Assembly: GCA_019638595.1 (NCBI GenBank)
Contig: JAHBTJ010000015.1
Coordinates: 124,001-188,000 of the forward strand
Direction: 5' to 3'
Length of the DNA stretch: 64,000 nt
From: Chitinophagaceae bacterium
Lineage (GTDB): Bacteria > Bacteroidota > Bacteroidia > Chitinophagales > Chitinophagaceae
Shown: piece after piece, positions 29,363-47,202 of the stretch
Position numbering within the stretch: the first letter of the stretch is position 1
Layout: every line of letters begins with the position of its first letter
Program-made: the position numbers and the translations under genes
The notes under the pieces: generated by a model
Seen by the model: only the letters and a program-made list of their open reading frames with translations
Databases searched by the model: none
Told to the model about the DNA's origin: nothing

Positions 29363-30136
29363 ATGCGTAATGTAAAATCAATAATAGGGCTGTTAACCAT
29401 TTCTATAGCGCTTTTTTCGTGTAAGGTTGGCAAACAGTTGGCTTATTTGCAGGATTTAGATGATACTACAAGAATACAGGAAGTGCGCATTGCTGCTTAT
29501 GAGCCTCTTAAGCTGCAGCCGGACGACCAGGTTCAGATAACCATCACCAGCAGGTCTGAAGAGGGTGCGCGCCAGTTTTCCATGATGGGCACCAGCATTA
29601 CCTCGGGTACTACCAACCAGGTCATTCAAAATGTATATACTGTTTCATCAAAAGGCACCATTACCATTCCTTTGATAGGTGAGCTTTCAATAGGGGGGCT
29701 TACAACCGAACAGGCTAAGGAGGTTGTTCAAAAGGAGGCTGTTGAATACGTAAAAGATGCGATGGTAGGTTTAAGCCTTATGAATTTCAGGATCACGGTT
29801 ATGGGAGAGGTAACCCGTCCTGCCACGCTCCAGGTGGCCGGCGAAAAGGTAAATGTGCTGGAGGCGTTGGGAATGGCCGGCGATTTAACGGTATTTGGTA
29901 AAAGATACAATGTTAAGGTAATACGGAAAGCGGGCGACAAGGTAGAAGTGGCGCATCTAAACCTTAACAGCAGCAAGGTAATGCGATCGCCCTTTTATAA
30001 TTTAAAACAAAATGATATAGTGTATGTGGAACCTGTAAAACGTAAGGGCTTTGCTGCAGAAACATCATTGGGAGTATTGCCTACGGTTCTCAGCGTAGCT
30101 ACATTAGCCCTGCTGATATTCAGGTATACGCGATAA
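29363..30136 (+). CDS. polysaccharide export outer-membrane lipoprotein, Wza/BexD family
   Basis: This 257-residue protein has a lipobox at Cys21 (ISIALFSCKVG). The polysaccharide export domain begins at about residue 50 (LQPDDQVQITITSRSEEGA), and SLBB-type repeats follow (FRITVMGEVTRPATLQV, then VLEALGMAGDLTVFGKR). A terminal hydrophobic helix (LPTVLSVATLALLIF) precedes a basic end, as in other Bacteroidota Wza homologues. It forms the export channel for the polysaccharide built by the following genes and is the first gene of the cluster. Confidence 0.93.
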   Translation: MRNVKSIIGLLTISIALFSCKVGKQLAYLQDLDDTTRIQEVRIAAYEPLKLQPDDQVQITITSRSEEGARQFSMMGTSITSGTTNQVIQNVYTVSSKGTITIPLIGELSIGGLTTEQAKEVVQKEAVEYVKDAMVGLSLMNFRITVMGEVTRPATLQVAGEKVNVLEALGMAGDLTVFGKRYNVKVIRKAGDKVEVAHLNLNSSKVMRSPFYNLKQNDIVYVEPVKRKGFAAETSLGVLPTVLSVATLALLIFRYTR

Positions 30137-30178
30137 TCAACTCAATAGCTTAGTACATCATACTTTAAAAGATTTTAA

Positions 30179-32610: not shown

Positions 32611-33528
32611 ATGTTTTCAGTAGTTATACCGCTTTATAATAAAGAAAAGAGCGTCCCCGGCACGATTGCCTCCGTATTAAACCAGGAGGTTAAAGATTTT
32701 GAGCTGATCATAGTAAACGATGGTTCTACCGATAAAAGTCTTGAGATTGTTGAAGCGATAAAAGACGACAGGATCATTATTATCAATAAGCAGAATGGTG
32801 GTATATCAAGTACCCGGAATGCAGGTATAAGAGCGGCTAAAAATCCCTACATAGCTTTTGTTGATGCGGATGATTACTGGGAGCCTGACTTTTTAACCAC
32901 TGTTTCAGCCCTGATCAGCGATTACCCCGAAGCCGATGCATTTGCAACAGGCTATGTTTGCAAGTTCAATGGACTTACATTGCATACCCTGGGAGTAAAG
33001 AACAGGGGAATCATTAAAGACTATTTCAAACTTGTATATCGCTACCCGGTAATGCATGCTTCATCGGTTTGCATAAAGAAAAGCAGTTTTGAAAAAGTGG
33101 GATGGTTTGATGAAAGAATGACACACGGAGAAGATTATAACATGTGGGACCGGTTGGGTAAGTATGGATTGATCGCGGCGTCTCCCCAACCCTGCGCATG
33201 GTATCAACTGGATACAGAGAACAGGGCATTGTTGCGGGTACCCCAGCCTTCCAAACACTGGATGTATTATATAAATAAAGAGGAGATCAGGAGCAGGGAG
33301 GAGGCTGCCTATTATAAAAGGTATATCAGGCGCCAGGTGCTTTTTTATTTTTTAAAAGGAAAAATAAAATGGGCCTGGCAAATTGCGTATAAGCAACGGG
33401 GCCTAACAAGTTGGTTTTCGTATTTAATGGTGCACGAATACCGTGAATTAAAAAGTATTCCACACCTTGTAATGAATAAATTAAAGAAGATTTTTTTCAG
33501 AAAGCAGGTGGCATTGGCAGAAAGATGA
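32611..33528 (+). CDS. glycosyltransferase family 2
   Basis: This 305-residue GT-A fold protein shows FSVVIPLYNKEKSV at the N-terminus, the nucleotide-binding IIVNDGSTDKS, NGGISSTRNAGI and the metal-binding D-A-D motif in AFVDADDYWEPDF. The second half is basic and lacks clear membrane helices, so it is likely peripheral on the inner membrane. It adds one sugar to the lipid-linked repeat unit, but donor and linkage cannot be read from the sequence. Confidence 0.92.
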   Translation: MFSVVIPLYNKEKSVPGTIASVLNQEVKDFELIIVNDGSTDKSLEIVEAIKDDRIIIINKQNGGISSTRNAGIRAAKNPYIAFVDADDYWEPDFLTTVSALISDYPEADAFATGYVCKFNGLTLHTLGVKNRGIIKDYFKLVYRYPVMHASSVCIKKSSFEKVGWFDERMTHGEDYNMWDRLGKYGLIAASPQPCAWYQLDTENRALLRVPQPSKHWMYYINKEEIRSREEAAYYKRYIRRQVLFYFLKGKIKWAWQIAYKQRGLTSWFSYLMVHEYRELKSIPHLVMNKLKKIFFRKQVALAER

Positions 33529-33556
33529 ATTGATATTGGTAATCAAGAAAGTAAAA

Positions 33557-34849
33557 ATGAAGATTTTAATTGTAAGTTATAGTTATCCTCCTGACAATAC
33601 TCCTGCCGCGCAAAGGCCTTACTTTATTGCCAAATACCTGGCACTATTAGGCCACGATGTAAATATACTTACAACCGGCGCATCCAATAGCTCTCTCGGA
33701 AAAAGTAACTGGGCAAAGCCTTTACCGGGTGTAACGGTTTGGGATACCGCAAGATCAAAACCTGTAGTACATCAAAGCGATGAGCCGGCAGCCCCCAAAA
33801 AAGCCGTTACGGGGTCCAAAACCAAATGGATCAAAAAAATTGCGCAAATGGTACTTTTTCCGGATAAAGCAATACTATGGTTCAGGGAATTGCTGGGATA
33901 CGATCTAGGAAAGATAGGAAAGCCGGATGTTGTAATTAGCACTTCTCCATTGTTTACCAATCACCTGGTAGCAAAAAGAGTGGTAAAGAGATTTAAATGT
34001 AAATGGATCGCCGATATACGCGATTTTCATTATACAAACACGGAAAGAGAGAAATCCGGGGGCTTAAAGAACAGGTTGAACGGAAGAATTGAAAGGGATT
34101 TATTAAAAAGAGCCGACTATATAACATTTGTCACCCAAACAATGAGAAATGTTTATTGCAGCAAATATGAATATGTAAAGCAGAAATCAATGGTTGTTTA
34201 CAATGGCTTTGAGCCTGAAGAATACCCTGCCGCACAGAATATTCTGCCTTCGGATAAAATGAAAATTTTTTATGCCGGTTCTTTTTATGATGGCTTGCGT
34301 GACCCGGCCCCGCTGCTGGCGGCGCTGGATATTCTTGTGCAGAAAAAGCTGGTGGATATTAATAAAGTTGAAATAGAAATTGCCGGCAATATACCCGAAG
34401 TAATTGCCCAAAGGATCAATCAATACCAATCTGCCGCCTGTGTAAAATTTTTGGGGTTGATTGAAAGAAAGGCAGCGATCGAAAAGATGAATAACTCGCA
34501 TTTGTTGTGGCTTATCATTGCCAACGTAAAGTCGCATTATATGACGTTTCCCTTAAAAGGGTTTGAATATATAGGAAGCAGGAGGCATATTGTTTTATTT
34601 TCACCACCCCAGGCAGAAGGTAAGATCATTGTTGAAGAATTGGGAGTGGGTACCTTTTTTAATCTTGCTACCGACGATGCTACAAATAATGAAAATGCGG
34701 AAAAGTTATTGCAGCTTTATAACAGTACTATGAACGGAGCGTTTGCTGATCCGGTAAAGGTAGAAGATGAAAAGCTTCTTCCATTTTTGCGAAAGGGACA
34801 GTCAATGCAGTTCAGCAATATAATACAAAGCCTACATGCAGCAGAATGA
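33557..34849 (+). CDS. glycosyltransferase, GT4-like
   Basis: The ATG at 33557 starts MKILIVSYSYPPDNTPAAQR, the usual N-terminus of GT4-like GT-B enzymes. The open frame upstream to a TTG at 33530 is less likely. The 430-residue protein has VISTSPLFTNHLVAKRV and WIADIRDFH in the acceptor domain, and KIFYAGSFYDGLRDP in the donor domain. The C-terminal E-x7-E motif is not obvious. It ends 14 bases inside the next gene, which suggests tight coupling. The sugar donor is unknown. Confidence 0.88.
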   Translation: MKILIVSYSYPPDNTPAAQRPYFIAKYLALLGHDVNILTTGASNSSLGKSNWAKPLPGVTVWDTARSKPVVHQSDEPAAPKKAVTGSKTKWIKKIAQMVLFPDKAILWFRELLGYDLGKIGKPDVVISTSPLFTNHLVAKRVVKRFKCKWIADIRDFHYTNTEREKSGGLKNRLNGRIERDLLKRADYITFVTQTMRNVYCSKYEYVKQKSMVVYNGFEPEEYPAAQNILPSDKMKIFYAGSFYDGLRDPAPLLAALDILVQKKLVDINKVEIEIAGNIPEVIAQRINQYQSAACVKFLGLIERKAAIEKMNNSHLLWLIIANVKSHYMTFPLKGFEYIGSRRHIVLFSPPQAEGKIIVEELGVGTFFNLATDDATNNENAEKLLQLYNSTMNGAFADPVKVEDEKLLPFLRKGQSMQFSNIIQSLHAAE

Positions 34850-36101
34850 ATGGTTCAATAAGAATTTGCTGGGAAGGATATATGTAATTCTTTCCTTTAT
34901 TATAGTTCCTTTGGGAGAATCGGGCTTAATGGGCAGAATTACCATTCCTGATATAATACTGGTAGCGGCCGCTGTATTGCTGTTGGGAAGTAAAAGAATT
35001 TATGCCCCGCGCATGAAAGTGCCATTGTTTCTTGTAGGGTCGTTTTTGATAACAGCTTTCCTTAGCCTGGATGTACGACTTTCTCTTACTGAAATATTGG
35101 TGATGGTTTTCCTGCTGATAGGGATCGTAGTAGTATATAATGTATATCATCAAAATTTTAAATTGTTGTTTCTCGATATATCAAGGGCCATCATTCTTTC
35201 GCTGGTAGTTGGGGTATATGATTTTTTTGCAGGTGGTGTGGGGTTGCCGAGGCTTTTCCCGGGAAGGGCTCCAGGGGAGATTGTTTCAGCCTTTCGTAAC
35301 GCCGGGCAGGCCGGAGCGTATGTGCTTGTGATGTTAACGATATTGCTGCCGGTATATCTCAGCAGCTTTAAAAACAGCTTTAAGGGCGCTGATAAAATGC
35401 TTATTAATACCGGCATCATTTGCGGGGTGGTATTTTTGTTTATCAGTGGTAAAATTGCCGCATACATCGGCTTTTTTAGCAGTATCATTTTTTTAAACAT
35501 CATGCAACGGAATGTGAAAGCGCTTTTTTCCACTGTTTTTATTGGAGCAATACTGGGTGTTATTTACTTTAACCTGGAAGATATATCTCCGGCGCTCAAT
35601 AAACGTATTCAGGCTAAAATTGAAAGCAGGATCACCGACAATATTGACGGAACCAGGAACGTTACTGAAGAAGGCTTTATCGCTGAAAATATCGGTAATG
35701 CTATCCGTGCCTTTAGCGATAACCCCTTGTCCGGTTCCGGTATCGGTGCTTTTTCTGTGGAATATGGGCGACATGAAGTGCACAGTACCTATTTTAAAAT
35801 GGTGGGGGAAACCGGCTTGATCGGGATAATAGGGTATACTTTTTTCTTCTTTTTTATGTTTAAGATCATTTTGTGGAAAATACCTCCCCGGAGCGTATTG
35901 CAGGAAAGATTACTTGACTATAAAAGGGTATTGCTGCCTTTTTATTTAGGATGCCTTATAAGCTGGGCATATACCTACCATTTAAGAAAACGCGAGTTCT
36001 GGATTATGGTATCCCTGATACTTCTTATAAATACAGTTCTTAAATACGATACGGAAGAAGAAGAGGAGGAGGAAAATAATATTGATTATGCAAAGCAATA
36101 A
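34836..36101 (+). CDS. O-antigen polymerase/ligase family protein, Wzy type
   Basis: This 421-residue integral membrane protein has about ten transmembrane helices and a large periplasmic loop. The Wzy_C-type segment NPLSGSGIGAFS, then EVHSTYFKMVGETGLIG, marks the O-antigen ligase/polymerase superfamily. In this cluster it most likely polymerises the flipped repeat units. The C-terminus carries a run of about seven glutamates (36055-36075). The DNA encoding it is purine-rich GAGGAGGAGG and lies 10-30 bases before the next start, where it could serve as its ribosome-binding site. Confidence 0.88.
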   Translation: MQQNEWFNKNLLGRIYVILSFIIVPLGESGLMGRITIPDIILVAAAVLLLGSKRIYAPRMKVPLFLVGSFLITAFLSLDVRLSLTEILVMVFLLIGIVVVYNVYHQNFKLLFLDISRAIILSLVVGVYDFFAGGVGLPRLFPGRAPGEIVSAFRNAGQAGAYVLVMLTILLPVYLSSFKNSFKGADKMLINTGIICGVVFLFISGKIAAYIGFFSSIIFLNIMQRNVKALFSTVFIGAILGVIYFNLEDISPALNKRIQAKIESRITDNIDGTRNVTEEGFIAENIGNAIRAFSDNPLSGSGIGAFSVEYGRHEVHSTYFKMVGETGLIGIIGYTFFFFFMFKIILWKIPPRSVLQERLLDYKRVLLPFYLGCLISWAYTYHLRKREFWIMVSLILLINTVLKYDTEEEEEEENNIDYAKQ

Positions 36102-37494
36102 TGATAATGTGCGGGCAACGGGTTTGCAGGGAGGATTGGTAGAGAAGGCGAAGCAACTTTTTAACAGGTATAAGAAAAGCAGTTATTCTTCGGGGATCTT
36201 GTTGGCCATTTCCCAGAGTGTTGTAGCGTTGGTTTTTATACTCATAGATTACATCTATTCAAAAAAGCTCACCAAAGTTGAATTTGGCGCATGGAAGAAA
36301 ATGTATTTTATCATTCAGTTCGTTACTCCCCTGTTGTCTTTAGGCTTTCCCGAAGGGTTCAAATTCTATATTGCTAAAGAGAATAACAAACCCTTATTTT
36401 TTTCCAACTTTTTTTTTACATTTTTAGCTATAGCGGTAACAGAACTGGTGGTTATAGTTTTCCTGAATATTTTTCATTACGCGGGGTGGGTAGATCTTAA
36501 TGTGTACTTTTTGGTGAGCCTGCTTTTTCCATTCGCGTTTTTTTGTTACGGTATCAATCAATCGCTTAAATATACTTTTATAAATGAACAACGGGTGTTT
36601 GATTTTATAAAAGTTACCCTTGTCAGCTTAACCACTACAATAGTTTTTATTATATTGTCCGGACTTTTGGTAAGCGTATATAAGTCTTACTATATGGTAT
36701 TGGGTGTGCTGCTGTATATTTTAACTTTTGGGTTGCCGCTCTATGCATTGTACGGAAAATCGGGGTTAACGCTGAACCGGAGCCTGGTTAACATGCAGCA
36801 GGTTAAAAAAATGTTTGCTATCGGCTTCCCGTTATATTGCGCTTCCTTTATCGGGGTAATAAGCATTAATCTTAACAAAGGGGTGGTTGCTTTTCTTGAA
36901 TCTAAAGAAGCGTTCGCTGTTTTTTCGGTAGGCGCTTTGGAAATACCCGTTTTTGCAATGCTGAGCGCATCGTTTTCACAGAATATTTATCCCAAGCTGG
37001 TGCAATATGTTCAAAATGGTGAAAAAGAAAGGGCGAAAAGGCTTTGGATCGACACAACAAGAAAGGTCTCTTATATTACGTATCCGATATTGCTGATACT
37101 GATGCTTTTTGCCAAGCAGATAATCTTCCTTATCTATTCAAAGGAATACCTGGATTCTGTTATTTTATTTCAAACTTTTTTATTGATCGGGCTTTTTAGA
37201 AATAATTTTTATGGAGCGTTAATTGTTGCCTCAGGAAAAACCAAGTTCATTACTTTTTACAGCGCACTTTCGCTCGTTTCTAATCTTATTATTTCATTGT
37301 CGTTGTATTATTTTTTCGGGATCAGGGGAATTGTATATGGCAATCTTATGTCGGTGGTAATTATTAACTGCCTGCAGTTAAATCATGAGAATCTGCTGGG
37401 TGATTACGTCAGGAAATTTTTATTTGATAAAAAAATATTCTTTCTCGTTTTAGCAATTTTAGCAGCATATTTTTATGCTGTATTTAAAGCGTAG
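36088..37494 (+). CDS. oligosaccharide flippase, Wzx type
   Basis: This protein of about 468 residues has 12-14 transmembrane segments and belongs to the MOP/polysaccharide biosynthesis superfamily: SSGILLAISQSVVALVFILI, FGAWKKMYFIIQFVTPLLSLGFPEG (landmark, split at QFVT), and LNKGVVAFLESKEAFAVFSVG. It flips lipid-linked repeat units across the inner membrane. I chose the ATG at 36088 over the TTG at 36082. It overlaps the polymerase gene and is preceded by an unusually purine-rich stretch encoding the polymerase's Glu tail. Confidence 0.9.
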   Translation: MQSNNDNVRATGLQGGLVEKAKQLFNRYKKSSYSSGILLAISQSVVALVFILIDYIYSKKLTKVEFGAWKKMYFIIQFVTPLLSLGFPEGFKFYIAKENNKPLFFSNFFFTFLAIAVTELVVIVFLNIFHYAGWVDLNVYFLVSLLFPFAFFCYGINQSLKYTFINEQRVFDFIKVTLVSLTTTIVFIILSGLLVSVYKSYYMVLGVLLYILTFGLPLYALYGKSGLTLNRSLVNMQQVKKMFAIGFPLYCASFIGVISINLNKGVVAFLESKEAFAVFSVGALEIPVFAMLSASFSQNIYPKLVQYVQNGEKERAKRLWIDTTRKVSYITYPILLILMLFAKQIIFLIYSKEYLDSVILFQTFLLIGLFRNNFYGALIVASGKTKFITFYSALSLVSNLIISLSLYYFFGIRGIVYGNLMSVVIINCLQLNHENLLGDYVRKFLFDKKIFFLVLAILAAYFYAVFKA

Positions 37495-37518
37495 AAAAGC
37501 ATTAAAGCTTTAAAGCAT

Positions 37519-38673
37519 ATGGCCAAAAGAAAATTGATGCGGGTTACAACCATTCCTGGCTCGTTAAGGTATTTATTAAAAAATCAATTGAAATTCATGA
37601 ACCAGCATTACGAGGTTCATGCAGTTGCCAGTCCCGGCCAATCATTGGAAGAGGTTGGTAAAAGCGAAGGAGTAATAACGCATAGCGTATTAATGACGCG
37701 TACCATCTCACCCTGGAAGGATTTTGTAGCCTTAATTAGACTGATAAAAATAATACGAAAACTACGCCCGGAAATTATACATACACATACTCCCAAGGCG
37801 GGCACATTGGGAATGATAGCTGCGAAGGTTACGGGCGTTCCTGTTCGCATGCATACGGTTGCCGGTCTGCCTTTGCTGGAAGCGAGGGGTAAGAAAAGAA
37901 AGCTCCTGGACCTGGTAGAGAAATTAACCTATTCGTGCGCTACCATGGTATATCCTAATTCGTTTGCCCTGAAAGACATTATTATAAAAAACGGTTATTG
38001 TAAAGAAAACAAGCTTTCGGTAATTGGTAATGGAAGCTCCAATGGTATTGATACCTCTTTTTTTGATCCTGCCCGGGTTTCGGAAGAAGCCTGCGACGCG
38101 CTGAGGAAAGAGTTAAATTTTGAAAAGACAGACAAAGTTTTTTGCTTTATAGGGAGGATTGTAAAAGATAAGGGCATTCATGAATTGTTAGAAGCTTTTA
38201 GCCGTAATGAAAAGAAGGGGTTATCGGCAAAATTGCTATTGCTGGGAACCTTTGAGCAAAAGCTGGATCCTATAACCAGGGAGGCGGAGGAGATGATATC
38301 CTCTCATCCTGACGTACGGTTTGTAGGATTTCAAAAGGATGTGCGCCCCTATCTGGCGATAAGCGATATTTTTGTTTTTCCAAGCTATCGCGAGGGCTTC
38401 CCCAATGTAGTAATGCAGGCAGGATCTATGGGATTGCCCTGCATTGTAAGTAATATAAACGGGTGCAACGAAATAGTTGAACACCAGAAAAACGGGCTGA
38501 TAGTGGCGCCTAAAAGCATGGAGGAATTGGGCGATGCCATGCTTTTTTTGATGGAAAATGAAGAAGCAAGAAAGAAAATGGCGGCAATATCGCGCCGGAT
38601 GATCGTTGACAGGTACAGCCAGCAATATATCTGGGACGAATTGCTCAAAGAGTATCGAAAGCAAACTGCTTAA
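37519..38673 (+). CDS. glycosyltransferase family 4
   Basis: This 384-residue GT-B enzyme has the N-terminal acceptor domain with EIIHTHTPKAGTLGMIAAKV and HTVAGLP, and the donor domain with FCFIGRIVKDKGIHELLEAF and DIFVFPSYREGFPNVVMQAG. The latter contains the E-x7-E retaining motif (E394-type, EGFPNVVMQ). It resembles PglA-like enzymes that add HexNAc to a lipid-linked bacillosamine-type sugar, which would suit the PglC/PglD/PglE-like genes in this cluster. That specificity is inference. Confidence 0.9.
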   Translation: MAKRKLMRVTTIPGSLRYLLKNQLKFMNQHYEVHAVASPGQSLEEVGKSEGVITHSVLMTRTISPWKDFVALIRLIKIIRKLRPEIIHTHTPKAGTLGMIAAKVTGVPVRMHTVAGLPLLEARGKKRKLLDLVEKLTYSCATMVYPNSFALKDIIIKNGYCKENKLSVIGNGSSNGIDTSFFDPARVSEEACDALRKELNFEKTDKVFCFIGRIVKDKGIHELLEAFSRNEKKGLSAKLLLLGTFEQKLDPITREAEEMISSHPDVRFVGFQKDVRPYLAISDIFVFPSYREGFPNVVMQAGSMGLPCIVSNINGCNEIVEHQKNGLIVAPKSMEELGDAMLFLMENEEARKKMAAISRRMIVDRYSQQYIWDELLKEYRKQTA

Positions 38674-38763: not shown

Positions 38764-39405
38764 ATGAATCATAAAATTGCAATTGCCGGTGCCGGGGGCT
38801 TTGCAAAAGAAGTTTATTTAATAATTGAAGCGATCAATAAACGAGAGCCTACATGGGATTTTATTGGTTTTTTTGATGATAAAATACCCAGGGGACGGTT
38901 ATTTTTGAATTTTGAAGTATTGGGAAATATGAATGATTTGAATAATATAAATGAAGGGTTGAATGTAGCGGTAGCAGCGGGCAGATCGGAAAATATCATC
39001 TCTATATTAAATAAGCTCACTTCCCCGGGAATCTCCTTTCCCAATATTATTCATCCAAAGGCTTTTTTACATTTTGAATCGTTGAAAATGGGAAAGGGGA
39101 ACATTATCCAGGCTGACTCTTCTTTTTCGGCAGATAACAGGGTGGGGGAGTATAATATATTTAATGCCTCGGTAAAAGTTGGGCATGATACTTTGATCGG
39201 TAATTATAATACATTTGCTACAGGAACATTTATTTCGGGTGGGGTGGCAGTGGGAGACAGAAATAATTTTGGCATTGGTTCCGGTGTTCTTCAATATAAA
39301 ACGGTAGGTAATGGTAACACAATAGGACCTTTATCTATCTTATTCAAAAGTATTAAAGACAATGGGCATTATTTAGGTGTGCCGGCTTTGCCCACCGGTA
39401 TGTAG
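38764..39405 (+). CDS. NeuD/PglD-family sugar N- or O-acyltransferase (first copy)
   Basis: This 213-residue protein has an N-terminal Rossmann-like domain (KIAIAGAGGFAKEVYLII) and a C-terminal left-handed beta helix with hexapeptide repeats (NIIQADSSFSADNRVGEYNI, split landmark, and SVKVGHDTLIGNYNTFATG). The His in KVGHDTLIG corresponds to the catalytic base of PglD. PglD acetylates UDP-4-amino sugars. Its place beside an acyl carrier protein and ketosynthases suggests that this copy may use a longer acyl-ACP donor. This is inference. Confidence 0.88.
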   Translation: MNHKIAIAGAGGFAKEVYLIIEAINKREPTWDFIGFFDDKIPRGRLFLNFEVLGNMNDLNNINEGLNVAVAAGRSENIISILNKLTSPGISFPNIIHPKAFLHFESLKMGKGNIIQADSSFSADNRVGEYNIFNASVKVGHDTLIGNYNTFATGTFISGGVAVGDRNNFGIGSGVLQYKTVGNGNTIGPLSILFKSIKDNGHYLGVPALPTGM

Positions 39406-39426
39406 GTTAATTAGATATCCTTCTGT

Positions 39427-39458
39427 AAAAATCTTTGTATGGAAGACCATAGATTTTT
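39427..39458 (+). terminator. terminator-like hairpin between NeuD-like and ACP genes
   Basis: AAAAATC (39427-39433) pairs with GATTTTT (39452-39458), and TATGG (39438-39442) with CCATA (39447-39451) inside it. The left arm has a 4-base bulge. The right arm ends in five T residues. It could act as an attenuator lowering expression of the downstream genes. Confidence 0.4.
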
Positions 39459-39478
39459 CATTTTAAACAAAGTTTTTT

Positions 39479-39706
39479 ATGGACAAAAATGCATTTCTCA
39501 GCTCTTTTGCGGATCAGTTCGATGACACGGATATATCTTCCATTACTTTAAATACCAGGTTCAAAGAGCTGGATGAATGGAGCTCAATGGTGGCTTTGAT
39601 GATCATTGCAATGGTAGATGAAAATTATAATAAGAAAATTACCGGTGCAGATCTGAGAGAGTCAGATACTATTGAACAGTTGTTTAACAGGGTCAGCGCA
39701 AAATAG
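39479..39706 (+). CDS. acyl carrier protein
   Basis: This 75-residue acidic helical protein has the phosphopantetheine attachment site at Ser36 in LDEWSSMVALMIIAMVDE. The usual DSL is replaced by SSM, as in specialised carrier proteins. It is not the housekeeping AcpP. It stands between an acyltransferase and an FabG/FabH set in a polysaccharide cluster, so it most likely carries the acyl group that decorates a sugar. No dedicated phosphopantetheinyl transferase is nearby. Confidence 0.9.
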   Translation: MDKNAFLSSFADQFDDTDISSITLNTRFKELDEWSSMVALMIIAMVDENYNKKITGADLRESDTIEQLFNRVSAK

Positions 39707-39808
39707 CTTCGGTATGCTCATTTTGTAATCAGCTCCTGTACCGGCTATTATTGAAAAACTGATATTGGCTGAAAACTTCCTTCAAAATTATTGGTATCAA
39801 ACTTTTTT

Positions 39809-40570
39809 ATGGATCAAAGTTCTCCTTTTTCTTTAGCCGGGAAAACAATCGTGGTTGCAGGAGCCTCTTCGGGAATAGGGCTGAGTATTTGCCGGAGCGT
39901 TGTAGCGGCAAATGGAAAAGTAATTGGTTTGGCCAGGAGGGAAGACAGGTTGCAGGCAATGGTAGATGAATTAGGCCCGGAAAGTGCTTCCTGCATAAAA
40001 GCCGATTTATCGAAAGATGAAGATATTGAAAATGCTGTAGCGCGGTTACCGGAAATAAACGGATATGTACATGCAGCCGGTATTATAAAATGGGGACCGC
40101 TTAAGTTTATTAAAAGACAGGCCCTGGAAGAAATAATGAATGTAAATTATTACTCCATGGTATTGACGCTGGCCGAAATGACCAGGAAAAAAAAGATCAA
40201 AAAGCAGGTGTATTCTTCAGTAGTGGTCATATCATCTGTTTCAGCGCTGGTGGGCTCAAAATCCAATTTGCTGTATACCGGCAGCAAGGGCGCTATGTCT
40301 GCCGCCGCACGTGTAATTGCAAGTGAATATGCTGCTCAAAAAATCAGGGTGAACGCCGTAGAGCCGGCAATGGTACATACCGATATGGCTTCTGAAGCCG
40401 AAGCGTTACTTTCGAGAGAGGCGGTTGAGAAAGATATGCAAAGTTATCCCTTTGGGTATGGTACACCGGAAGACGTGGCCAACGCCACTGTTTTTTTACT
40501 TTCAGATGCTTCGCGATGGATAACCGGCCAGTCTTTAGTGCTGGATGGCGGATGGCTTAATTTAGTATAA
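39809..40570 (+). CDS. SDR-family oxidoreductase, FabG-like 3-ketoacyl reductase
   Basis: The ATG at 39809 gives 253 residues. The open frame upstream starts at a TTG with unrelated residues. The classical SDR motifs are present: cofactor motif VVAGASSGIGLS, active-site Ser in VVISSVSALVGS, Y-x3-K in LYTGSKGAM, and a C-terminal GQSLVLDGGWL. It is expected to reduce a 3-ketoacyl-ACP to the 3-hydroxyacyl form with NADPH. Context beside an ACP and two ketosynthases supports this over a sugar reductase role. Confidence 0.9.
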   Translation: MDQSSPFSLAGKTIVVAGASSGIGLSICRSVVAANGKVIGLARREDRLQAMVDELGPESASCIKADLSKDEDIENAVARLPEINGYVHAAGIIKWGPLKFIKRQALEEIMNVNYYSMVLTLAEMTRKKKIKKQVYSSVVVISSVSALVGSKSNLLYTGSKGAMSAAARVIASEYAAQKIRVNAVEPAMVHTDMASEAEALLSREAVEKDMQSYPFGYGTPEDVANATVFLLSDASRWITGQSLVLDGGWLNLV

Positions 40571-40608
40571 TAACAAAAACAAAAGTATACGGAAGTATAC
40601 AAAAGCAT

Positions 40609-41667
40609 ATGGCGCTACTGCATAACAAACATGTTTCCATTACCGGCATCAGTGCCTGTGTTCCCCGGCAGGTTATAAGGAACCAGGATAACCTTGTCTT
40701 TCCTGAAAATGATGTAAAAACGTTCGTTAGCAATGTAGGTATTGAAGAGTATCGTGCCAGCGAACCGGCAATGTGTGCTTCCGATTTGTGCGTGGCCGCG
40801 GCGGAAAAGCTTATAGAGGATATGGGCATCTGTAAGGAAGATATCGGGATACTGGTATTTGTTTCCCAGTCGCCGGATTATTATTTCCTGCCCAATACTG
40901 CCTGTATCATCCAGGACAGGTTGAACCTTAGCAAAGAAACGCTCGCTTTTGATGTGCCTTTAGGATGCAGCGGGTATATATACGGCCTGAATATTATCGC
41001 TTCCTATCTTTCTGCCGGTCAAATAAAAAAAGGATTGCTGCTGGTAGGAGATACGGCCTCTAAAACCACCAATGCCAAAGATAAAAGCAGCGCCCTGCTT
41101 TTTGGAGATGCGGGTGCGGCTACTATATTGGAGTACGCTCCCGGAGCGGAAGGTATTCATTTCCATCTGGCAACCGATGGTGCGGGATATAAGGCCATCA
41201 TTGTTCCCGAAGGTGGCTTTAGGAACAGGTTTTCTCATGGATCGCTGGAGGAAAAAACCAATGAGGAAGGGTTGATCAGGTGCGGCATTAATGTTCACCT
41301 GGATGGGTTTGATGTTTTTTCATTTGGCATAACCGAGGCGCCTAAAACGGTTAAGAAACTCACGGAGCAGTTAAAGCTTACCAATAGCGATATTGACTTT
41401 GCCGTTTTTCACCAGGCAAACAAAATGATGAATGAAAAAATAAGGAAAAAGCTTGCTCTTCCTGAAGACAAGGTTCCCTATTCGCTTAAAAAATTTGGTA
41501 ATACCAGTTCGGCGTCTATCCCGCTCACCATGGTTGCCGCTATACGCGGGCAGCTGCACCGGCAAAAAGCGCGTGTTATTTTATGCGGATTCGGTGTAGG
41601 GTTATCCTGGGGCACAGCCTATACAACACTTGACGGTATTTTTGTTTCTGAACTGGTTGAATTATAA
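40609..41667 (+). CDS. 3-oxoacyl-ACP synthase III-family protein (first of two)
   Basis: This 352-residue FabH-like enzyme has the full catalytic triad: Cys120 (PLGCSGYIYGL), His268 (FAVFHQANKMM) and Asn298 (FGNTSSASIPL). KAS III enzymes condense an acyl-CoA starter with malonyl-ACP. Two different copies side by side with a dedicated ACP and reductase indicate synthesis of a special short acyl chain rather than membrane lipid. The start MALLHNKHVSITGISACVPR is preceded by two direct repeats AAGTATAC (40584-40603 area). Confidence 0.9.
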   Translation: MALLHNKHVSITGISACVPRQVIRNQDNLVFPENDVKTFVSNVGIEEYRASEPAMCASDLCVAAAEKLIEDMGICKEDIGILVFVSQSPDYYFLPNTACIIQDRLNLSKETLAFDVPLGCSGYIYGLNIIASYLSAGQIKKGLLLVGDTASKTTNAKDKSSALLFGDAGAATILEYAPGAEGIHFHLATDGAGYKAIIVPEGGFRNRFSHGSLEEKTNEEGLIRCGINVHLDGFDVFSFGITEAPKTVKKLTEQLKLTNSDIDFAVFHQANKMMNEKIRKKLALPEDKVPYSLKKFGNTSSASIPLTMVAAIRGQLHRQKARVILCGFGVGLSWGTAYTTLDGIFVSELVEL

Positions 41668-41671
41668 AAAT

Positions 41672-42688
41672 ATGCCGGTTGATCCTGCAACCATATCTGC
41701 TGTAGCGTACTATCTTCCAAACAGGGAGCTGACGAATGAGCAGCTTAGTATCGAATTTCCTGAATGGAGCGTAGAAAAAATAATGGCTAAAGTAGGTATT
41801 GCCAGCCGGCGTATAGCCGCTCCCGATGAATTTGTTTCAGACCTTGCGGTAAAAGCATCTCAAAAGCTGTTTGAAGAGCATAATATTAGTGCTGCCGATA
41901 TTGATTACCTGGTTGTATGCACGCAAAGTCCTGATTATTTTTTGCCGGCTACTTCCTGTATTGTTCACCACCGGTTAGGCTTACCCGCTAACGCAGGAGC
42001 AATAGATGTGAACCAGGGCTGTTCGGGCTTTGTATATGGACTTGGGCTTGCAAAAGGAATAATAACTTCCGGCGATGCATGTAACATTCTTTTGATCACT
42101 GCCGATACCTACAGCAGGTTCCTGCACCCGCTTGATAAAGGTAACCGGTCTATTTTTGGCGATGCCGCCGCGGCTACCCTTGTATCTTCGAAAGGAGCTG
42201 GAGCAATAATAGGAAAAATGATTTGGGGTACTGATGGCAGGGGCGCCCACAATTTAATAGTTAAGAATGGAGCCATGCGTTCACCCAGATCGGGCGATAC
42301 TCATTTATATACCGATGAAGATGGTAACGCATACAATGATAATTACCTCTTCATGAATGGATCGGAGGTATTTAATTTTACGCTGGAAGCGGTTCCTGCG
42401 CTTATAAGCCGGATACTTGAAAAAAACAATTTGAAGCAGGAGGAAATTGATCTTTTTGTTTTTCACCAGGCTAACAGGTTCATACTCGATTATTTAAGAA
42501 AGAAAACGAAAATTCCTGCCGATAAATTTTTTATATGGATGGAAACCTGCGGTAACACGGTTTCTTCTACTATACCTATCGCTTTGTACCAGGCACAAAA
42601 AAGTAATAGTATTAAAAAGGGGGATAAGGTGTTGGTAGCGGGTTTTGGAGTGGGGTATTCCTGGGGAGGAACTGTTTTGTATTTTTGA
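41672..42688 (+). CDS. 3-oxoacyl-ACP synthase III-family protein (second of two)
   Basis: The ATG at 41672 lies 4 bases after the previous stop and gives 338 residues starting MPVDPATISAVAYYLP. The frame extends further upstream into the previous gene, which is unlikely to be used. The triad is complete: Cys117 (NQGCSGFVYGLG), His265 (FVFHQANRFIL) and Asn295 (CGNTVSSTIP). It is clearly diverged from the first copy, so the pair is not a recent duplication. It may do the second elongation or use a different starter. Confidence 0.9.
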   Translation: MPVDPATISAVAYYLPNRELTNEQLSIEFPEWSVEKIMAKVGIASRRIAAPDEFVSDLAVKASQKLFEEHNISAADIDYLVVCTQSPDYFLPATSCIVHHRLGLPANAGAIDVNQGCSGFVYGLGLAKGIITSGDACNILLITADTYSRFLHPLDKGNRSIFGDAAAATLVSSKGAGAIIGKMIWGTDGRGAHNLIVKNGAMRSPRSGDTHLYTDEDGNAYNDNYLFMNGSEVFNFTLEAVPALISRILEKNNLKQEEIDLFVFHQANRFILDYLRKKTKIPADKFFIWMETCGNTVSSTIPIALYQAQKSNSIKKGDKVLVAGFGVGYSWGGTVLYF

Positions 42689-42715
42689 GCACTTTTTCAT
42701 TTATCAGCTTCTGTT

Positions 42716-43324
42716 ATGTACAAAGGATTTTTTAAAAGGATATTGGATTTTTTTGTAGCTACTATCGGCTTTTTGATCTTGCTCCCGGTTTTTTTAATAG
42801 TAATGTTTTTGTTATTGATAGCAAACTCGGGGAAACCGTTTTTTTTCCAGGACAGGCCCGGGCGTAACGGTAAAATATTCAGGGTTATTAAATTTAAAAC
42901 CATGAATGATAAAACCGACGACAGGGGTAATTTGTTGCCGGGAGAATTGAGGATCACAAAAGTGGGGAACTTTGCCAGGAAAACCTCTCTTGACGAGATC
43001 CCGCAATTGATAAATGTAATAAAAGGAGATATGAGCCTGGTTGGGCCGCGTCCGTTGCTGGTATCCTATTTGCCATTGTACAATCAAAAGCAAAAAAGAC
43101 GGCATGAAATGAGACCGGGCATTACCGGATGGGCGCAGGTAAACGGAAGGAACGCCATTAGCTGGGAGCAAAAGTTTGAATACGATGTTTGGTATGTTGA
43201 TAACTGCTCTTTAGGGCTTGATATAAAAATACTTTTTTTAACGGTGCTTAAAGTGTTCAGGAGCGAAGGCATTAACGCAGGTGAAAAGGTAACCATGAAA
43301 CCTTTTACAGGTTCAGGCGAATGA
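42716..43324 (+). CDS. phosphoglycosyl transferase, PglC/WcaJ-type sugar transferase
   Basis: This 202-residue monotopic enzyme has one N-terminal re-entrant membrane segment (LDFFVATIGFLILLPVFLIV) and the catalytic core IKFKTMND, then LDEIPQLINVIKGDMSLVGP (split landmark) and RPGITGWAQVNGRN. The small size, with only the catalytic domain, matches PglC rather than the larger WbaP. It transfers a sugar phosphate from a UDP-sugar to undecaprenyl phosphate, starting each repeat unit. The aminotransferase and NeuD genes nearby suggest a diacylated amino sugar as substrate. Confidence 0.93.
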   Translation: MYKGFFKRILDFFVATIGFLILLPVFLIVMFLLLIANSGKPFFFQDRPGRNGKIFRVIKFKTMNDKTDDRGNLLPGELRITKVGNFARKTSLDEIPQLINVIKGDMSLVGPRPLLVSYLPLYNQKQKRRHEMRPGITGWAQVNGRNAISWEQKFEYDVWYVDNCSLGLDIKILFLTVLKVFRSEGINAGEKVTMKPFTGSGE

Positions 43325-43592
43325 TGGGAACGGCAGGGTAAAGCAATGATTTATTGCAATATTTTGATTGATTCATATAATTTGTTACTGCCTGCTCCTT
43401 CCGGATATGGATAAAACAGAAAAAAAATATATCTTTGAGCATTATTCCCAATAACTCCCTCCTGGTATAATTTGAGCATCATCCCAATGCCTCTACTCTG
43501 GTATAAATGTACCTGCACGCCACTTTTTAGATTTTTGCGGGTGTCTTGTTAAGTTTTCGTGCAGTTGTGGCAGTTTATTTTATTAAGCAAGG

Positions 43593-44621
43593 ATGATATT
43601 ACAGAGAATAGCTTATATACCATACTATTTATTGAAGACACCCTGGAAAATCTTCTTTACTTATTTTTCTTTTGTAAAAAAGAAAAATAAAATCCCTGCA
43701 ATAAAGCTGCTGAAGGATCTGTTCAAAAATATTTTCAGGTACAATGCTGCTCCACTCGATTATTTTACACTTCGTTTTTTTGATCTTACAGAAAATGAGC
43801 GGGCCTTATACGCCTGTACCGGGTTTATGTACGAATACCAGTTAAGAATGAACCCTTCTGAGTATAGATCTGTTTTACGTGATAAAATAAAATTTCTTGC
43901 TCACTTTAAAGATTTATCCGGTCGTGAATGGGCTACCGTAAAAATGCTGAAGGAAGATCCCGGTATTGCCCAAAAATTTATTTGTAATCCTGAAAAAAAG
44001 TTCGTTATAAAGAAAGCCACAGGCCAGGCAGGAAAACAGGTGGAGGTTGTAAACAGCTCGGGTATGAATGCAGAAGCGATCATTAAACTGATGGAAGAGA
44101 AAGGTTTTGATCTGCTGGAAAGATATGTAATTCAGCACGATGACCTGATGAGGTTGTCGCCGGCCGCTTTAAATACGGTAAGGATTGTAACGCAGTATAA
44201 TAATGGTGTTGTGGATGTGTTGCTCGCTTTTATAAGGATCAGCGTAAATATGAAGGTTGATAATTTATCGGCAGGGAATTACGGAGCGAATTTTGGCGCT
44301 CCCATTAACCTGGCAACCGGTAAAATAATGGCTCCTGGCATGTATATTGATATCACAAAGCCCAATGAGTATCATCACCCGGTTACAAAAGTTAAGCTGG
44401 TAGAATTCCAGATACCTTTTTGGAAGGAGAGTGTAGAGCTGGTGAAGAAGGCTGCCTGCCATATTCCTCAAAACAGGTCTGTAGGATGGGATGTGGGGAT
44501 CACCAACCAGGGGCCGGTTCTTATTGAAGGAAATCATAACTGGAATTATTTGTCTCAGCTTTTGGGAAGCAAAGCGTTGAGGAATGAATTTTTACAATAT
44601 CAGTCTGACCTTTTATCTTAA
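43593..44621 (+). CDS. sugar-transfer associated ATP-grasp protein
   Basis: This 342-residue protein matches the ATP-grasp group found with polysaccharide genes: FVIKKATGQAGKQVEVVNSS (split landmark), LERYVIQHDDLMRLSPAALN, TVRIVTQYN, and VGWDVGITNQGPVLIEGNHN (split landmark). The N-terminus is basic with a hydrophobic stretch that may touch the membrane. ATP-grasp enzymes ligate a carboxylate to an amine or thiol through an acyl phosphate. Here it could attach an amino acid or other acid to a sugar. A 268-base gap upstream holds no gene and only a lone TATCTTTG box at 43430. Confidence 0.85.
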   Translation: MILQRIAYIPYYLLKTPWKIFFTYFSFVKKKNKIPAIKLLKDLFKNIFRYNAAPLDYFTLRFFDLTENERALYACTGFMYEYQLRMNPSEYRSVLRDKIKFLAHFKDLSGREWATVKMLKEDPGIAQKFICNPEKKFVIKKATGQAGKQVEVVNSSGMNAEAIIKLMEEKGFDLLERYVIQHDDLMRLSPAALNTVRIVTQYNNGVVDVLLAFIRISVNMKVDNLSAGNYGANFGAPINLATGKIMAPGMYIDITKPNEYHHPVTKVKLVEFQIPFWKESVELVKKAACHIPQNRSVGWDVGITNQGPVLIEGNHNWNYLSQLLGSKALRNEFLQYQSDLLS

Positions 44622-44687
44622 CACAAAAATTCTAAGCAGTTTACCCAGATATATGGTTAGTACTATTTGAATGCCTAATTTTAGATA

Positions 44688-45338
44688 ATGAATAAGTTTA
44701 ATTTACTTGTAATCGGGTGTGGAAATGTGGGGGCGTTTGTAGCTTACAACTTTAAAGATTTTCAACTGGATGATTTTGTGATGCAGGGTTTTATTGATGA
44801 TGATCAGGAAAAATGGGACAAAAATCTTTTCGGATATCCTGTGCTGGGAGGAGTTGACAAGATCGTTCATTTGCAGGAAAAGACAGGGGTTGTAGTTACT
44901 ATAGCCAACCCTGTTATTAAAAAGAAAATAATAGACAAATTACTTCCCAATAAAAATATAATATTCCCTTCTCTTGTTTCCCGGCATTCGTGGATATCCA
45001 CTCATGTGTTTATTGGCAATGGCGTAATTATTTATCCGGGCGTTTCTATAAACTATCATACCCGTGTTGAAGACTTTGTTATTATAAATATGAATTCCGC
45101 CATAGGGCACGATTGCCATATTCAACGGTTTAGCGCGCTTGCGCCGGGTGTTGCTTTAGGGGGCTTTACCAATATAGGAGAGTGTGTTGACATGGGTATA
45201 CATTCCGCCACCAGGCAGTCGGTAAAAATTGGTAAACATTCTGTTGTGGGAGGAATGGCCATGGTAGTGAAGGATTTGCCCGACTCGGTGACTGCCGTAG
45301 GCGTTCCCGCTAAAATCGTAAAAACAAAAAAAGCGTAA
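44688..45338 (+). CDS. NeuD/PglD-family sugar acetyltransferase (second copy)
   Basis: This 216-residue protein has the nucleotide-sugar-binding N-terminus (NLLVIGCGNVGAFVAYNF) and a left-handed beta helix (VIINMNSAIGHDCHIQRF, then GVALGGFTNIGECVDMG). It ends VTAVGVPAKIVK. The His in AIGHDCHI is the expected base. It is diverged from the copy at 38764. Being directly upstream of the DegT aminotransferase, it is the better candidate for plain PglD-type acetylation of the 4-amino group, leaving the other copy for the ACP-linked acyl group. Confidence 0.9.
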   Translation: MNKFNLLVIGCGNVGAFVAYNFKDFQLDDFVMQGFIDDDQEKWDKNLFGYPVLGGVDKIVHLQEKTGVVVTIANPVIKKKIIDKLLPNKNIIFPSLVSRHSWISTHVFIGNGVIIYPGVSINYHTRVEDFVIINMNSAIGHDCHIQRFSALAPGVALGGFTNIGECVDMGIHSATRQSVKIGKHSVVGGMAMVVKDLPDSVTAVGVPAKIVKTKKA

Positions 45339-45392
45339 ACTTTTCCGCTTCGCTTAATTTTACTGCAAATAATCTATTTCGAAATAAAAAGT

Positions 45393-46526
45393 ATGCATCC
45401 AAAAATCTGGCTTTCATCTCCTCATATGGGAGGCAACGAACGGAAATATGTTACAGAAGCTTTTGATACCAACTGGGTAGCTCCCTTAGGCCCGCATGTG
45501 AACGGGTTTGAAAAAGATATCAGCGCTTTTCTTTTGCCCGGCAACGGGAACGAAATTCATGTAGCGGCATTGAGCTCGGGTACGGCTGCAATACATCTTG
45601 GGTTGATATTGATGGACGTAAAAGCCGGGGATGAGGTGATATGCCAAAGTATGACCTTTTCCGCATCGGCAAATCCTATTGCTTACCAGGGAGCCACGCC
45701 TGTTTTTGTAGACAGCGAACCTGATACCTGGAACATGTCGCCTGAATTTCTGGAAGAAGCGATCAAGGACAGGATCGCTAAAGGACGTAAGCCCCGGGCG
45801 ATCATTCCCGTGCATTTATACGGTATGCCGGCCAAAATGGATGCTATTATGCAAATAGCCGGCAATTATGAAATACCGGTGCTGGAAGACGCGGCGGAAG
45901 CTTTAGGCAGCCATATCAATGGTAAAATGTGCGGCACGTTCGGAGTTATTTCCGCGCTGTCCTTCAACGGCAATAAGATCATTACTACTTCAGGCGGTGG
46001 CGCCCTGGTAGCGCATGACGCCCGGATAGCTGAAAAAGCAAGATTTCTTTCAACACAGGCGCGCGATGCGGCGCCGCATTACCAGCACTCTCATATTGGC
46101 TACAATTACCGTATGAGCAATATTTGTGCGGGAATAGGAAGGGGGCAAATGGAAGTGTTGCAGGAAAGGATCGCCCAAAGAAGAGCAAACTTTGAATGGT
46201 ATAAAAATGAGCTGCAAGAGATTGCCGGGTTAGCATTTCCGGCTACTCCCGAAGGTTATTTTTCTAACCACTGGCTTACTACCGTTATTGTAAATGATGA
46301 CAGCGTTGACCGCGAAAAGCTAAGGCTCGCATTGGAAGCCGTGAATATAGAAAGCCGGCCCCTGTGGAAGCCCATGCATAAGCAACCCGTTTTTGCCGGT
46401 GCGCCTTTTTATGGCGACGGCACTTCGGAACGGTTGTTTGAAAAAGGCTTGTGCCTGCCTTCCGGCTCTAACTTAACTCAACAGGAAAAGGAAAGGATAT
46501 TAAAAGAAATAAAAGCGGTGTTTTAA
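45393..46526 (+). CDS. DegT/DnrJ/EryC1/StrS-family sugar aminotransferase
   Basis: This 377-residue fold-type I PLP enzyme has the PLP lysine Lys195 in SFNGNKIITTSGGG, with ALSSGTAAIHLGL and EDAAEALGS in place. The sequence (MHPKIWLSSPHMGGNERKYV, split landmark) resembles PglE-like enzymes that add an amino group at C4 of a UDP-4-keto-6-deoxy-HexNAc. No UDP-sugar 4,6-dehydratase (PglF-like) lies in the window, so that step must be encoded elsewhere. It is the last gene of the cluster and is followed by a hairpin. Confidence 0.93.
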   Translation: MHPKIWLSSPHMGGNERKYVTEAFDTNWVAPLGPHVNGFEKDISAFLLPGNGNEIHVAALSSGTAAIHLGLILMDVKAGDEVICQSMTFSASANPIAYQGATPVFVDSEPDTWNMSPEFLEEAIKDRIAKGRKPRAIIPVHLYGMPAKMDAIMQIAGNYEIPVLEDAAEALGSHINGKMCGTFGVISALSFNGNKIITTSGGGALVAHDARIAEKARFLSTQARDAAPHYQHSHIGYNYRMSNICAGIGRGQMEVLQERIAQRRANFEWYKNELQEIAGLAFPATPEGYFSNHWLTTVIVNDDSVDREKLRLALEAVNIESRPLWKPMHKQPVFAGAPFYGDGTSERLFEKGLCLPSGSNLTQQEKERILKEIKAVF

Positions 46527-46566: not shown

Positions 46567-47202
46567 TTATGGTTGAGGTATCAGCCTGGCCGCTTTCATA
46601 ACATCCACAATAGAAGGAAAGCTGTTGCTGAGCTTTTGTTGTATATCGCCGGGTTGTACCCATTCTATTTGCATAATGTCCTCTTCGGTTTGTGGTTTTG
46701 TTTCTTCGGCAGCGGTAGCTTTCATATTATACCAGTACGATTCTTTTAAAATATGTTTTCCAAACTCTTCGTAGGTATGATAGGTGGTGACGATGAACGA
46801 AGTTAATGCAACCTGTTTCAGCCCTGTTTCTTCCTGTACTTCACGCAATGCGCATGCTTCTAATGTTTCTCCTTTGTCGAGCTTACCTTTAGGCAGGTCC
46901 CATTTTCCGCGCCTGTAAATCATTAATATCGCGTCCCGGCTGTTTTTTATCAGCCCTCCCGCTGCCTGTATCACTATAAAATGCTTCCAGAACATTTTTT
47001 TTAGCTGGCTGATATCCGTATGGTATAGTATGCCTGAATGAAAGCCGGGCTTCGCTATTTCATGCAATAAGGATTTAACTGCGGGATTGGTAAGCTCATC
47101 AATGAAAACAGTATCGGGATGATGCCTGTATTCCTCTATGACAGGGGTCATTTCATCGCACAAAAAAACAGGCTTATCGTTAAAATAGATTTTAAAAACC
47201 AT
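46567..47202 (-). CDS. NUDIX hydrolase
   Basis: This 211-residue protein has a complete Nudix box from Gly106 to Leu128 (GKLDKGETLEACAL, then REVQEETGL). An N-terminal extension of about 70 residues is common in Bacteroidota members. It hydrolyses a nucleoside-diphosphate-linked compound in the cytoplasm, but the substrate cannot be assigned. It is divergent from pyrE with only 27 bases between starts, so the two promoters must overlap. Confidence 0.9.
   Translation of the reverse strand: MVFKIYFNDKPVFLCDEMTPVIEEYRHHPDTVFIDELTNPAVKSLLHEIAKPGFHSGILYHTDISQLKKMFWKHFIVIQAAGGLIKNSRDAILMIYRRGKWDLPKGKLDKGETLEACALREVQEETGLKQVALTSFIVTTYHTYEEFGKHILKESYWYNMKATAAEETKPQTEEDIMQIEWVQPGDIQQKLSNSFPSIVDVMKAARLIPQP

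Follow-up and report, generated by a model that had tools for sequence, protein, structure and literature searches.

Here, we describe five adjacent genes from a Chitinophagaceae bacterium which appear to form a type II acyl pathway for short chains, dedicated to a single sugar in a polysaccharide of the Wzx/Wzy type. They lie within a stretch of 64,000 nucleotides, called the window throughout (GenBank assembly GCA_019638595.1, contig JAHBTJ010000015.1, positions 124,001 to 188,000), of a genome of 7.06 Mb in 52 contigs. They encode a NeuD/PglD-like acyltransferase (AT1), an acyl carrier protein (ACP), a ketoreductase (KR) and two FabH-like ketosynthases (KS1 and KS2; KS stands for ketosynthase). 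All five were found on the forward strand between glycosyltransferase genes and a PglC-like gene, where an earlier note on this DNA had placed them (Table 1). On balance we lean towards the view that this kit builds a short hydroxyacyl-ACP, most likely 3,5-dihydroxyhexanoyl-ACP, by two condensations and ketoreductions, and that AT1 moves the chain to a PglE-type 4-amino sugar. This interpretation is likely to be right in kind and plausible in detail. The genes, their motifs, the predicted fold of the ACP and a recurring neighbourhood with PglC, PglE and PglF homologues are seen directly. The grouping is biology and not chance, because the five-gene set recurs jointly in relatives.

Proposed pathway

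The growing chain would be carried on Ser36 of the ACP. A first KS would condense a two-carbon starter with malonyl-ACP, and the KR would reduce the resulting 3-keto group. The other KS would then add a second malonyl unit and the KR would act again, most probably giving 3,5-dihydroxyhexanoyl-ACP. Since neither dehydratase nor enoyl reductase is present, the hydroxyls should stay. AT1 would pass the finished chain to UDP-Qui2NAc4N, at its 4-amino group. This sugar would come from the PglE-type aminotransferase and a PglF-type dehydratase whose gene lies on another contig. Once acylated, it would be loaded onto the lipid carrier by the PglC-like enzyme. We infer the order of action of the two KS, the two reductions, the chain length and the acceptor of AT1.

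The lack of dehydratase and enoyl reductase had been reported in the earlier note and was reproduced: no dehydratase family was matched among the 20 open reading frames (ORFs) scanned in 24344-46526 (Pfam; ten ORFs also NCBIfam), and the Pfam name 'Enoyl-ACP reductase' on the KR belongs to a generic model of the short-chain dehydrogenase/reductase (SDR) family. The further claim that two condensations would give exactly a 3,5-dihydroxy or 3-hydroxy acyl group is not supported in its exactness.

The kit proteins

Both KS carry complete Cys-His-Asn triads (Cys120/His268/Asn298 in KS1, Cys117/His265/Asn295 in KS2), as noted before. In an alignment of rows of 300-420 aa, the Cys, His and Asn columns are retained in 158, 159 and 159 of 160 KS1-type rows, respectively, and in all 76 KS2-type rows. 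A pair of KS and chain-length factor was rejected, as the triad is intact in both proteins. Against the FabH model TIGR00747 (cut-off 292.1) KS1 reaches 212.2 and KS2 259.5 bits, both under the curated cut-off. The open frame of KS2 begins with TTG at 41630; we chose the ATG at 41672.

A KS tree of 110 rows separates KS1-type and KS2-type proteins into two clades with supports of 97 and 98 in the Shimodaira-Hasegawa-like approximate likelihood ratio test, the only support measure used in this short search. Rows were at least 290 aa long, rows of at least 380 aa were trimmed to the last 352, and the KS1/KS2 labels had been preassigned by the better phmmer score against the two KS of the window. 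Four further FabH-like proteins of the same genome fall outside both clades (a fifth, on contig 45, is not in the tree). Ordinary fatty-acid genes were rejected on these grounds and because of the polysaccharide operon setting. Loci in other genomes are denoted by L numbers below. The closest relatives in the tree come from the same genus, L146 for KS1 (75% identity) and L145 for KS2 (68%); the best named match of KS1 is L161 from a Chitinophagaceae metagenome-assembled genome (74%).

The coenzyme A (CoA) adenine positions of FabH, which we take to be Trp32, Arg36 and Arg151, read W, R, R in two FabHs of the same genome, T, N, K in KS1 and K, K, K in KS2. At the first of them Trp falls outside the seven commonest residues in KS1 and KS2 rows alike. 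Arg occupies the second in 11 of 76 KS2 rows; for the third, the counts are 16 of 160 (KS1) and 7 of 76 (KS2). Thus, KS1 and KS2 may use another starter, or another starter carrier, than FabH.

The ACP scores only 18.8 bits against PF00550, under the cut-off of 20.8. Its AlphaFold2 model has a predicted local distance difference test score (pLDDT) of 93.3 and shows a helix beginning at Ser36. The best 50 Foldseek rows are mostly ACP entries (template modelling (TM) score on the query 0.62-0.82; none at E <=0.001), and the remaining rows are chains of large complexes that presumably contain an ACP. Trp34 and Ser36 do not vary among 17 aligned sequences, and 154 of 161 small frames labelled as ACP contain the motif W-x-S-[M/L/I/F]. 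The ACP, described before as non-housekeeping, is not the only one of the genome: 13 phosphopantetheine-binding places were found elsewhere, one of them in an 83-aa frame. At G000:C23:188188-216248, elsewhere in the same genome, open frames of 690 to 3260 aa together contain eight carrier-protein domains, which resembles a large nonribosomal peptide synthetase or polyketide synthase cluster.

The KR scores below the cut-offs of the FabG models and carries the SDR motifs GASSGIG (18-24) and YxxxK (Tyr156 and Lys160). Across 144 KR-labelled frames, GxxxGxG is present in 139 and YxxxK in all 144. Its open frame begins with TTG at 39791, and 39809 was chosen as start.

AT1 is the proposed hydroxyacyl-ACP:4-amino-sugar N-acyltransferase. 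We call it NeuD-like because its PglD_N score of 42.1 bits exceeds the cut-off of 23.4; against the NeuD model TIGR03570 it stays with 145.5 bits under the curated cut-off of 160.8. Gly-His-Asp 140-142 is invariant across 12 aligned proteins. Family matches in the PDB are PglD (3bss, 38 bits), VioB (7txp, 51), PerB (4ea7, 65) and a pilin glycosylation protein (4m98, 65), and there are also local matches to hexapeptide acyltransferases of the LpxA/LpxD type. Beyond AT1 itself 22 matches were found, 20 of which were taken for context (those of genomes G038 and G370 were left out). In a tree of NeuD-family proteins of 190-260 aa, AT1 clusters with four ACP-adjacent relatives. The ACP-adjacency label (same strand, <4500 bases) changes 7 times on this tree of 71 rows, 49 of them ACP-adjacent, against 18.9 times in shuffles, a difference inflated by related loci. 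An ACP-specific clade holds only in part, as AT1-like proteins are also found without ACP. The second NeuD/PglD-family protein of the window, PglD2, lies about 5 kb from the ACP and was scored as not adjacent; it is 52% identical to a protein of L145, and its next best rows reach 28-38%.

Recurrence in related genomes

Two loci of the same genus, L145 and L146 (the latter with an additional gene), and two close named ones, L161 and L162, keep the order AT1-ACP-KR-KS1-KS2, and identities for the five proteins are 61-78%. KS1 and KS2 are both present in these four loci and in L147/L163. From AT1 to PglC the order is constant in the window, L145, L161 and L162, while the genes beyond vary. L145 has a second NeuD gene and ATP-grasp genes, as in the window; L162 has an ATP-grasp gene and a weakly matched second ATP-grasp-type gene, without a second NeuD gene. 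L146 shows orthologous Wzx (56%) and Wzy (58%) and a PglE, lacks PglC in the stretch seen, and has AT1 as its sole NeuD gene in 19.5 kb. One genome of the genus (G665) carries two different KS1-KS2 pairs, namely L145 (G665:C34), a full cluster, and L147 (G665:C47), where the pair lies on a 3.8 kb contig and is followed by an ATP-grasp gene.

Other arrangements were observed more distantly. L148 (same family) and L189 (Flavobacterium xinjiangense) read PglC-KS2-NeuD-ACP-KS1-KR-PglE-PglF. L189 has one NeuD-family gene in the stretch seen, and L148 one near PglE plus a weak hexapeptide match (18 bits) 10 kb upstream. One-KS forms are L084, PglC-NeuD-ACP-KR-KS2-PglE-PglF, and seven loci with PglC-ACP-KS1-KR-NeuD-PglE-PglF (unlabelled genes ignored), including 6 of 20 Flavobacterium-genus contexts. 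L146, L189 and L084 combine a single NeuD gene in the stretch seen with ACP and PglE, as does L148 apart from its weak match. Acylation of the PglE product is therefore most naturally assigned, as a candidate role, to the NeuD enzyme adjoining the ACP.

Several relatives carry additional genes. Rieske-type oxygenases (PF00355 and PF00848) lie inside Flavobacterium cassettes at L165:8053-9138 and L189:5681-6766, in the latter between NeuD and ACP, and Rieske-labelled genes (label only) also occur in L252, L253, L258 and the F. johnsoniae locus L173, which has a two-KS kit; such an oxygenase might introduce one more hydroxyl, into either the acyl chain or the sugar. Adenylate-forming ligases (PF00501) were found inside related cassettes at L225:5585-6976 and L219:10350-11726, and L146:12082-13494 encodes an F390/PaaK-related protein, under all cut-offs shown and without Pfam match. 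This suggests loading of other starters.

KS1-like genes (E up to 1e-60) are present in 55 of 295 genomes of the class and KS2-like genes (E up to 1e-70) in 12 of 294 genomes of the family, the own genome included in both; the latter comprise 3 of the 5 same-genus genomes in the family listing. With KS1 of L189 as query (E up to 1e-60), 52 of 398 genomes of its genus were positive, and 20 of these 52 contexts were read. Gene labels in relatives come from phmmer against the window proteins and a few locus proteins, such that divergent genes can be missed or mislabelled, and several loci are cut by contig ends. The counts are not independent: named and unnamed sets overlap (L193/L032, L235/L044, L163/L147, L221/L249 and L061/L250 were spotted by eye), and L114, which repeats L084, was left out of later comparisons.

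Among the best 80 named KS1 loci, a set biased towards KS1 of the window, 34 have NeuD in the KS1 run, 22 have GtrB and 24 neither. The 34 NeuD loci contain ACP in 34 cases, KR in 32 and two or more KS in 24; 12 carry a Rieske-labelled gene (11 of these have two KS), 5 an adenylate-ligase label, and 23 have PglE within 3 kb on either strand. The full set of KS1, KS2, KR, ACP and NeuD in one run occurs in 15 of the 80, i.e., ten Flavobacterium loci that share one arrangement and hence do not count independently, and L161, L162, L181, L189 and L197. It also occurs in 2 of 12 family loci (L145 and L146) and 2 of 20 Flavobacterium-genus loci; L148 was not counted, because a called reverse ORF between KS2 and AT1 breaks the run. 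Thus, the exact set of the window is patchy and the wider kit is common. The 61 NeuD+ACP loci of all sets, which overlap somewhat, show 43 orders of labelled genes. Such shuffling of the order at conserved content speaks for a functional unit. There is also a distinct, common type of operon that has no NeuD gene and reads KS2-ACP-KS1-KR, with genes for a GtrB/DPM-like glycosyltransferase and a GNAT acyltransferase coming next (L032, L035, L188, L193 and other class-sample loci).

The surrounding cluster

The main genes between 29363 and 46526 all lie on the forward strand. Export genes of Wza-like and Wzc-like type are followed by GT2, GT4, Wzy-like, Wzx-like and a further GT4 gene (GT, glycosyltransferase), then by AT1, ACP, KR, KS1 and KS2. 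Downstream lie the PglC-like gene and three genes that the earlier note had covered without naming them: an ATP-grasp gene, PglD2 and a LegC/PglE-type aminotransferase. An opposite-strand reading frame (46567-47202) follows. The model of the ATP-grasp protein (pLDDT 75.8) matches ATP-grasp enzymes of the RimK/LysX/Ddl type at a TM-score of about 0.4. PF14397-type genes lie beside the kit also in L145, L147/L163 and L162, and a literature search under three names of this family found no paper.

Table 1. Genes of the acyl kit and of the polysaccharide cluster around it (window positions).
Feature	Position	Strand	Evidence
AT1, NeuD/PglD-like hexapeptide acyltransferase adjoining the ACP	38764..39405	+	PglD_N, NeuD model, motif, tree
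Dedicated ACP, Ser36 as proposed phosphopantetheine site	39479..39706	+	motif, AlphaFold2 model, Foldseek
KR, SDR-family 3-ketoacyl-ACP reductase	39809..40570	+	PF13561/PF00106, SDR motifs
KS1, FabH-like ketosynthase of the KS1 clade	40609..41667	+	Pfam/NCBIfam, triad, tree
KS2, FabH-like ketosynthase of the KS2 clade	41672..42688	+	NF006829 289.9 bits, over cut-off 249
PglC-like initiating phosphoglycosyl transferase	42716..43324	+	PF02397 212 bits
ATPgrasp_ST ligase (sugar-transfer-associated ATP-grasp)	43593..44621	+	PF14397 149 bits
PglD2, second NeuD/PglD-family acyltransferase	44688..45338	+	TIGR03570 167 bits, over cut-off
LegC/PglE-type sugar aminotransferase	45393..46526	+	PF01041 323 bits; TIGR04181 389.6 bits, under cut-off 420
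Wza-like export protein and Wzc-like chain-length protein/kinase	29363..32575	+	PF02563, PF02706, PF13807
Three glycosyltransferases, Wzy-like polymerase (34836-36101) and Wzx-like flippase (36112-37494)	32611..38673	+	Pfam matches

Alternative interpretations

Several observations weigh against the pathway as proposed. The cluster is without PglF, and the best candidate of the genome, a 675-aa dehydratase (PF02719, 381 bits; under the NCBIfam cut-offs shown), is encoded on another contig. The FabH residues Trp/Arg/Arg are absent from KS1 and KS2, so that an acetyl-CoA starter is not assured. The order of KS1 and KS2 cannot be deduced from one-KS loci, since each clade occurs as the sole KS of a cassette. 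Within the 34 named NeuD loci, the co-directional run includes PglE in only 10 cases and PglC in 8. In an even sample of 54 class loci, 41 have GtrB-type neighbours without NeuD (36 of them with GNAT), 6 have NeuD, 6 neither, and L084 has KS2 only; hence, KS types alone do not define the product. The joint five-gene set is absent from this sample (0 of 54), which instead shows one-KS NeuD forms and NeuD-free GtrB forms, and this slightly lowered our confidence in the proposed pathway. The likeness to the Flavobacterium psychrophilum genes wfpC-G, treated below, is one of described gene complement. Finally, given the second NeuD gene and the ATP-grasp gene, it is uncertain which amino group AT1 acylates. 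The link between acyl kit and 4-amino-sugar pathway made in the earlier note is supported as far as a dedicated kit near PglE is concerned (L146, L148, L189).

This uncertainty leads to a reading that we regard as a minor but real possibility and that agrees with the proposed pathway on acyl synthesis itself: PglD2 would acetylate the amine made by PglE, and AT1 would attach the hydroxyacyl group elsewhere, to a different amino sugar or to an ATP-grasp-built substituent. PglD2 lies directly 5' of PglE and is the one of the two NeuD-family proteins that exceeds the NeuD cut-off, and L145 has the same NeuD pair plus ATP-grasp genes. On the other hand, L146, L189 and L084 manage with a single NeuD gene near ACP and PglE, as does L148 apart from its weak distant match, and no second sugar aminotransferase was found among the 20 window ORFs scanned. 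It is unlikely, in our view, that the same kit and sugar yield 3-hydroxybutyryl or another product of one condensation, with the second KS setting a different starter or being spare. One-KS cassettes look self-sufficient (seven loci with KS1, L084 with KS2), and Pseudomonas syringae makes 3-hydroxybutyryl with one KS (excerpts of PMC3927599); yet the triads are kept in both KS, the two occur together in L145, L146, L147/L163, L161 and L162, and the known two-KS cluster, wfp, has a C6 product (excerpts of PMC6519341).

We consider it quite improbable that a preformed non-acetyl starter leads to a longer or branched hydroxyacyl chain. The altered CoA-loop residues of both KS and the adenylate-forming enzymes in L146, L219 and L225 would fit such a route, but the cassette genes of the window itself do not include such a ligase. 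A more speculative extension, to which we give little weight, is a composite side chain: the ATP-grasp enzyme would add an amino or hydroxy acid to the 4-amino sugar and AT1 would cap it with ACP-made dihydroxyhexanoyl, a polyketide-like kit and a peptide-ligase-like enzyme thus working in series. More broadly, the recurring kit, in which the number of KS is one or two and a Rieske oxygenase and an adenylate ligase may be present or absent, would amount to a combinatorial code for the acyl decoration of surface sugars in bacteria.

Serotype depends in part on the acyl groups of 4-amino sugars. The existence of one-KS and two-KS kits makes a rule testable, namely that the number of KS sets the chain length, and such a rule would allow genome-based prediction of these acyl groups. 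Further kinds of acyl group are suggested by the Rieske and adenylate-ligase additions in relatives. These variants are a more useful outcome than the single locus.

Comparison with known systems

AT1 and PglD2 match the same enzyme family as PglD of the Campylobacter bacillosamine pathway (PglC/PglD/PglE/PglF), and PglC-like and PglE-like enzymes are shared as well. PglD uses acetyl-CoA, and the Campylobacter pathway is without ACP or KS. LpxA and LpxD demonstrate that the hexapeptide fold is able to accept acyl chains from ACP; in contrast to the role proposed for AT1, they handle long 3-hydroxyacyl chains for lipid A, and they are not known to carry a PglD_N domain. A title-level literature search on ACP/KS cassettes for bacillosamine-type sugars gave nothing directly relevant, nor was a paper on the spread of the kit found at that level, with subscription journals mostly outside the search.

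The viosamine island of P. syringae (vioA, vioB, vioS, vioR, acp) resembles the kit in having a KS III, a KR, a small ACP, the VioB acyltransferase and a sugar aminotransferase, and in placing a hydroxyacyl amide on a 4-amino sugar. It differs in its single KS, its C4 product (3-hydroxybutyryl amide), its dTDP-viosamine and its flagellin glycan. A vioR mutant loses the modified viosamine, d-Quip4N(3-hydroxy-1-oxobutyl)2Me (excerpts of PMC3927599 for all these points). Fatty-acid genes are also reported in enterobacterial flagellin islands (excerpt of PMC4875605). A review cites a structure of the composite kind considered above, N-[(R)-3-hydroxybutyryl]-L-alanyl on 4-amino-4,6-dideoxyglucose, with no pathway in the passage concerned. 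It also gives Vibrio cholerae O3 as a case in which this type of diamino sugar, as in F. psychrophilum, bears 3,5-dihydroxyhexanoyl (excerpts of PMC3210612), which may serve the two-KS rule as another structural anchor.

The closest known case is the fish pathogen F. psychrophilum, whose 3,5-dihydroxyhexanoyl amide on Qui2NAc4N was established by nuclear magnetic resonance, so that the modification invoked in the earlier note is real; its R-group genes alter lipopolysaccharide antigenicity (excerpts of PMC6519341, the only paper found under the wfp names). In 2019, its authors predicted WfpC and WfpE as KS, WfpD as ACP, WfpF as KR, WfpG as acyltransferase and WfpB as PglC (same excerpts). No F. 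psychrophilum locus is among the best 80 named KS1 loci. The idea of such a pathway for the 3,5-dihydroxyhexanoyl amide is thus published, and the kit described here, suspected to be a new version of it, is mostly a further member, new in gene order and in its extra neighbours. New are also the one-KS and two-KS forms, the shuffled orders and the Rieske-oxygenase or adenylate-ligase additions in relatives. By described roles, the R1 genes wfpC-G of the F. psychrophilum O-polysaccharide share with the window two KS, a dedicated ACP, a KR and a PglD homologue next to PglC and PglE homologues. In contrast to the wfp cluster as excerpted, the window has the order AT-ACP-KR-KS-KS, no PglF in its cluster, an additional ATP-grasp gene, a second NeuD gene and Wza/Wzc-type genes.

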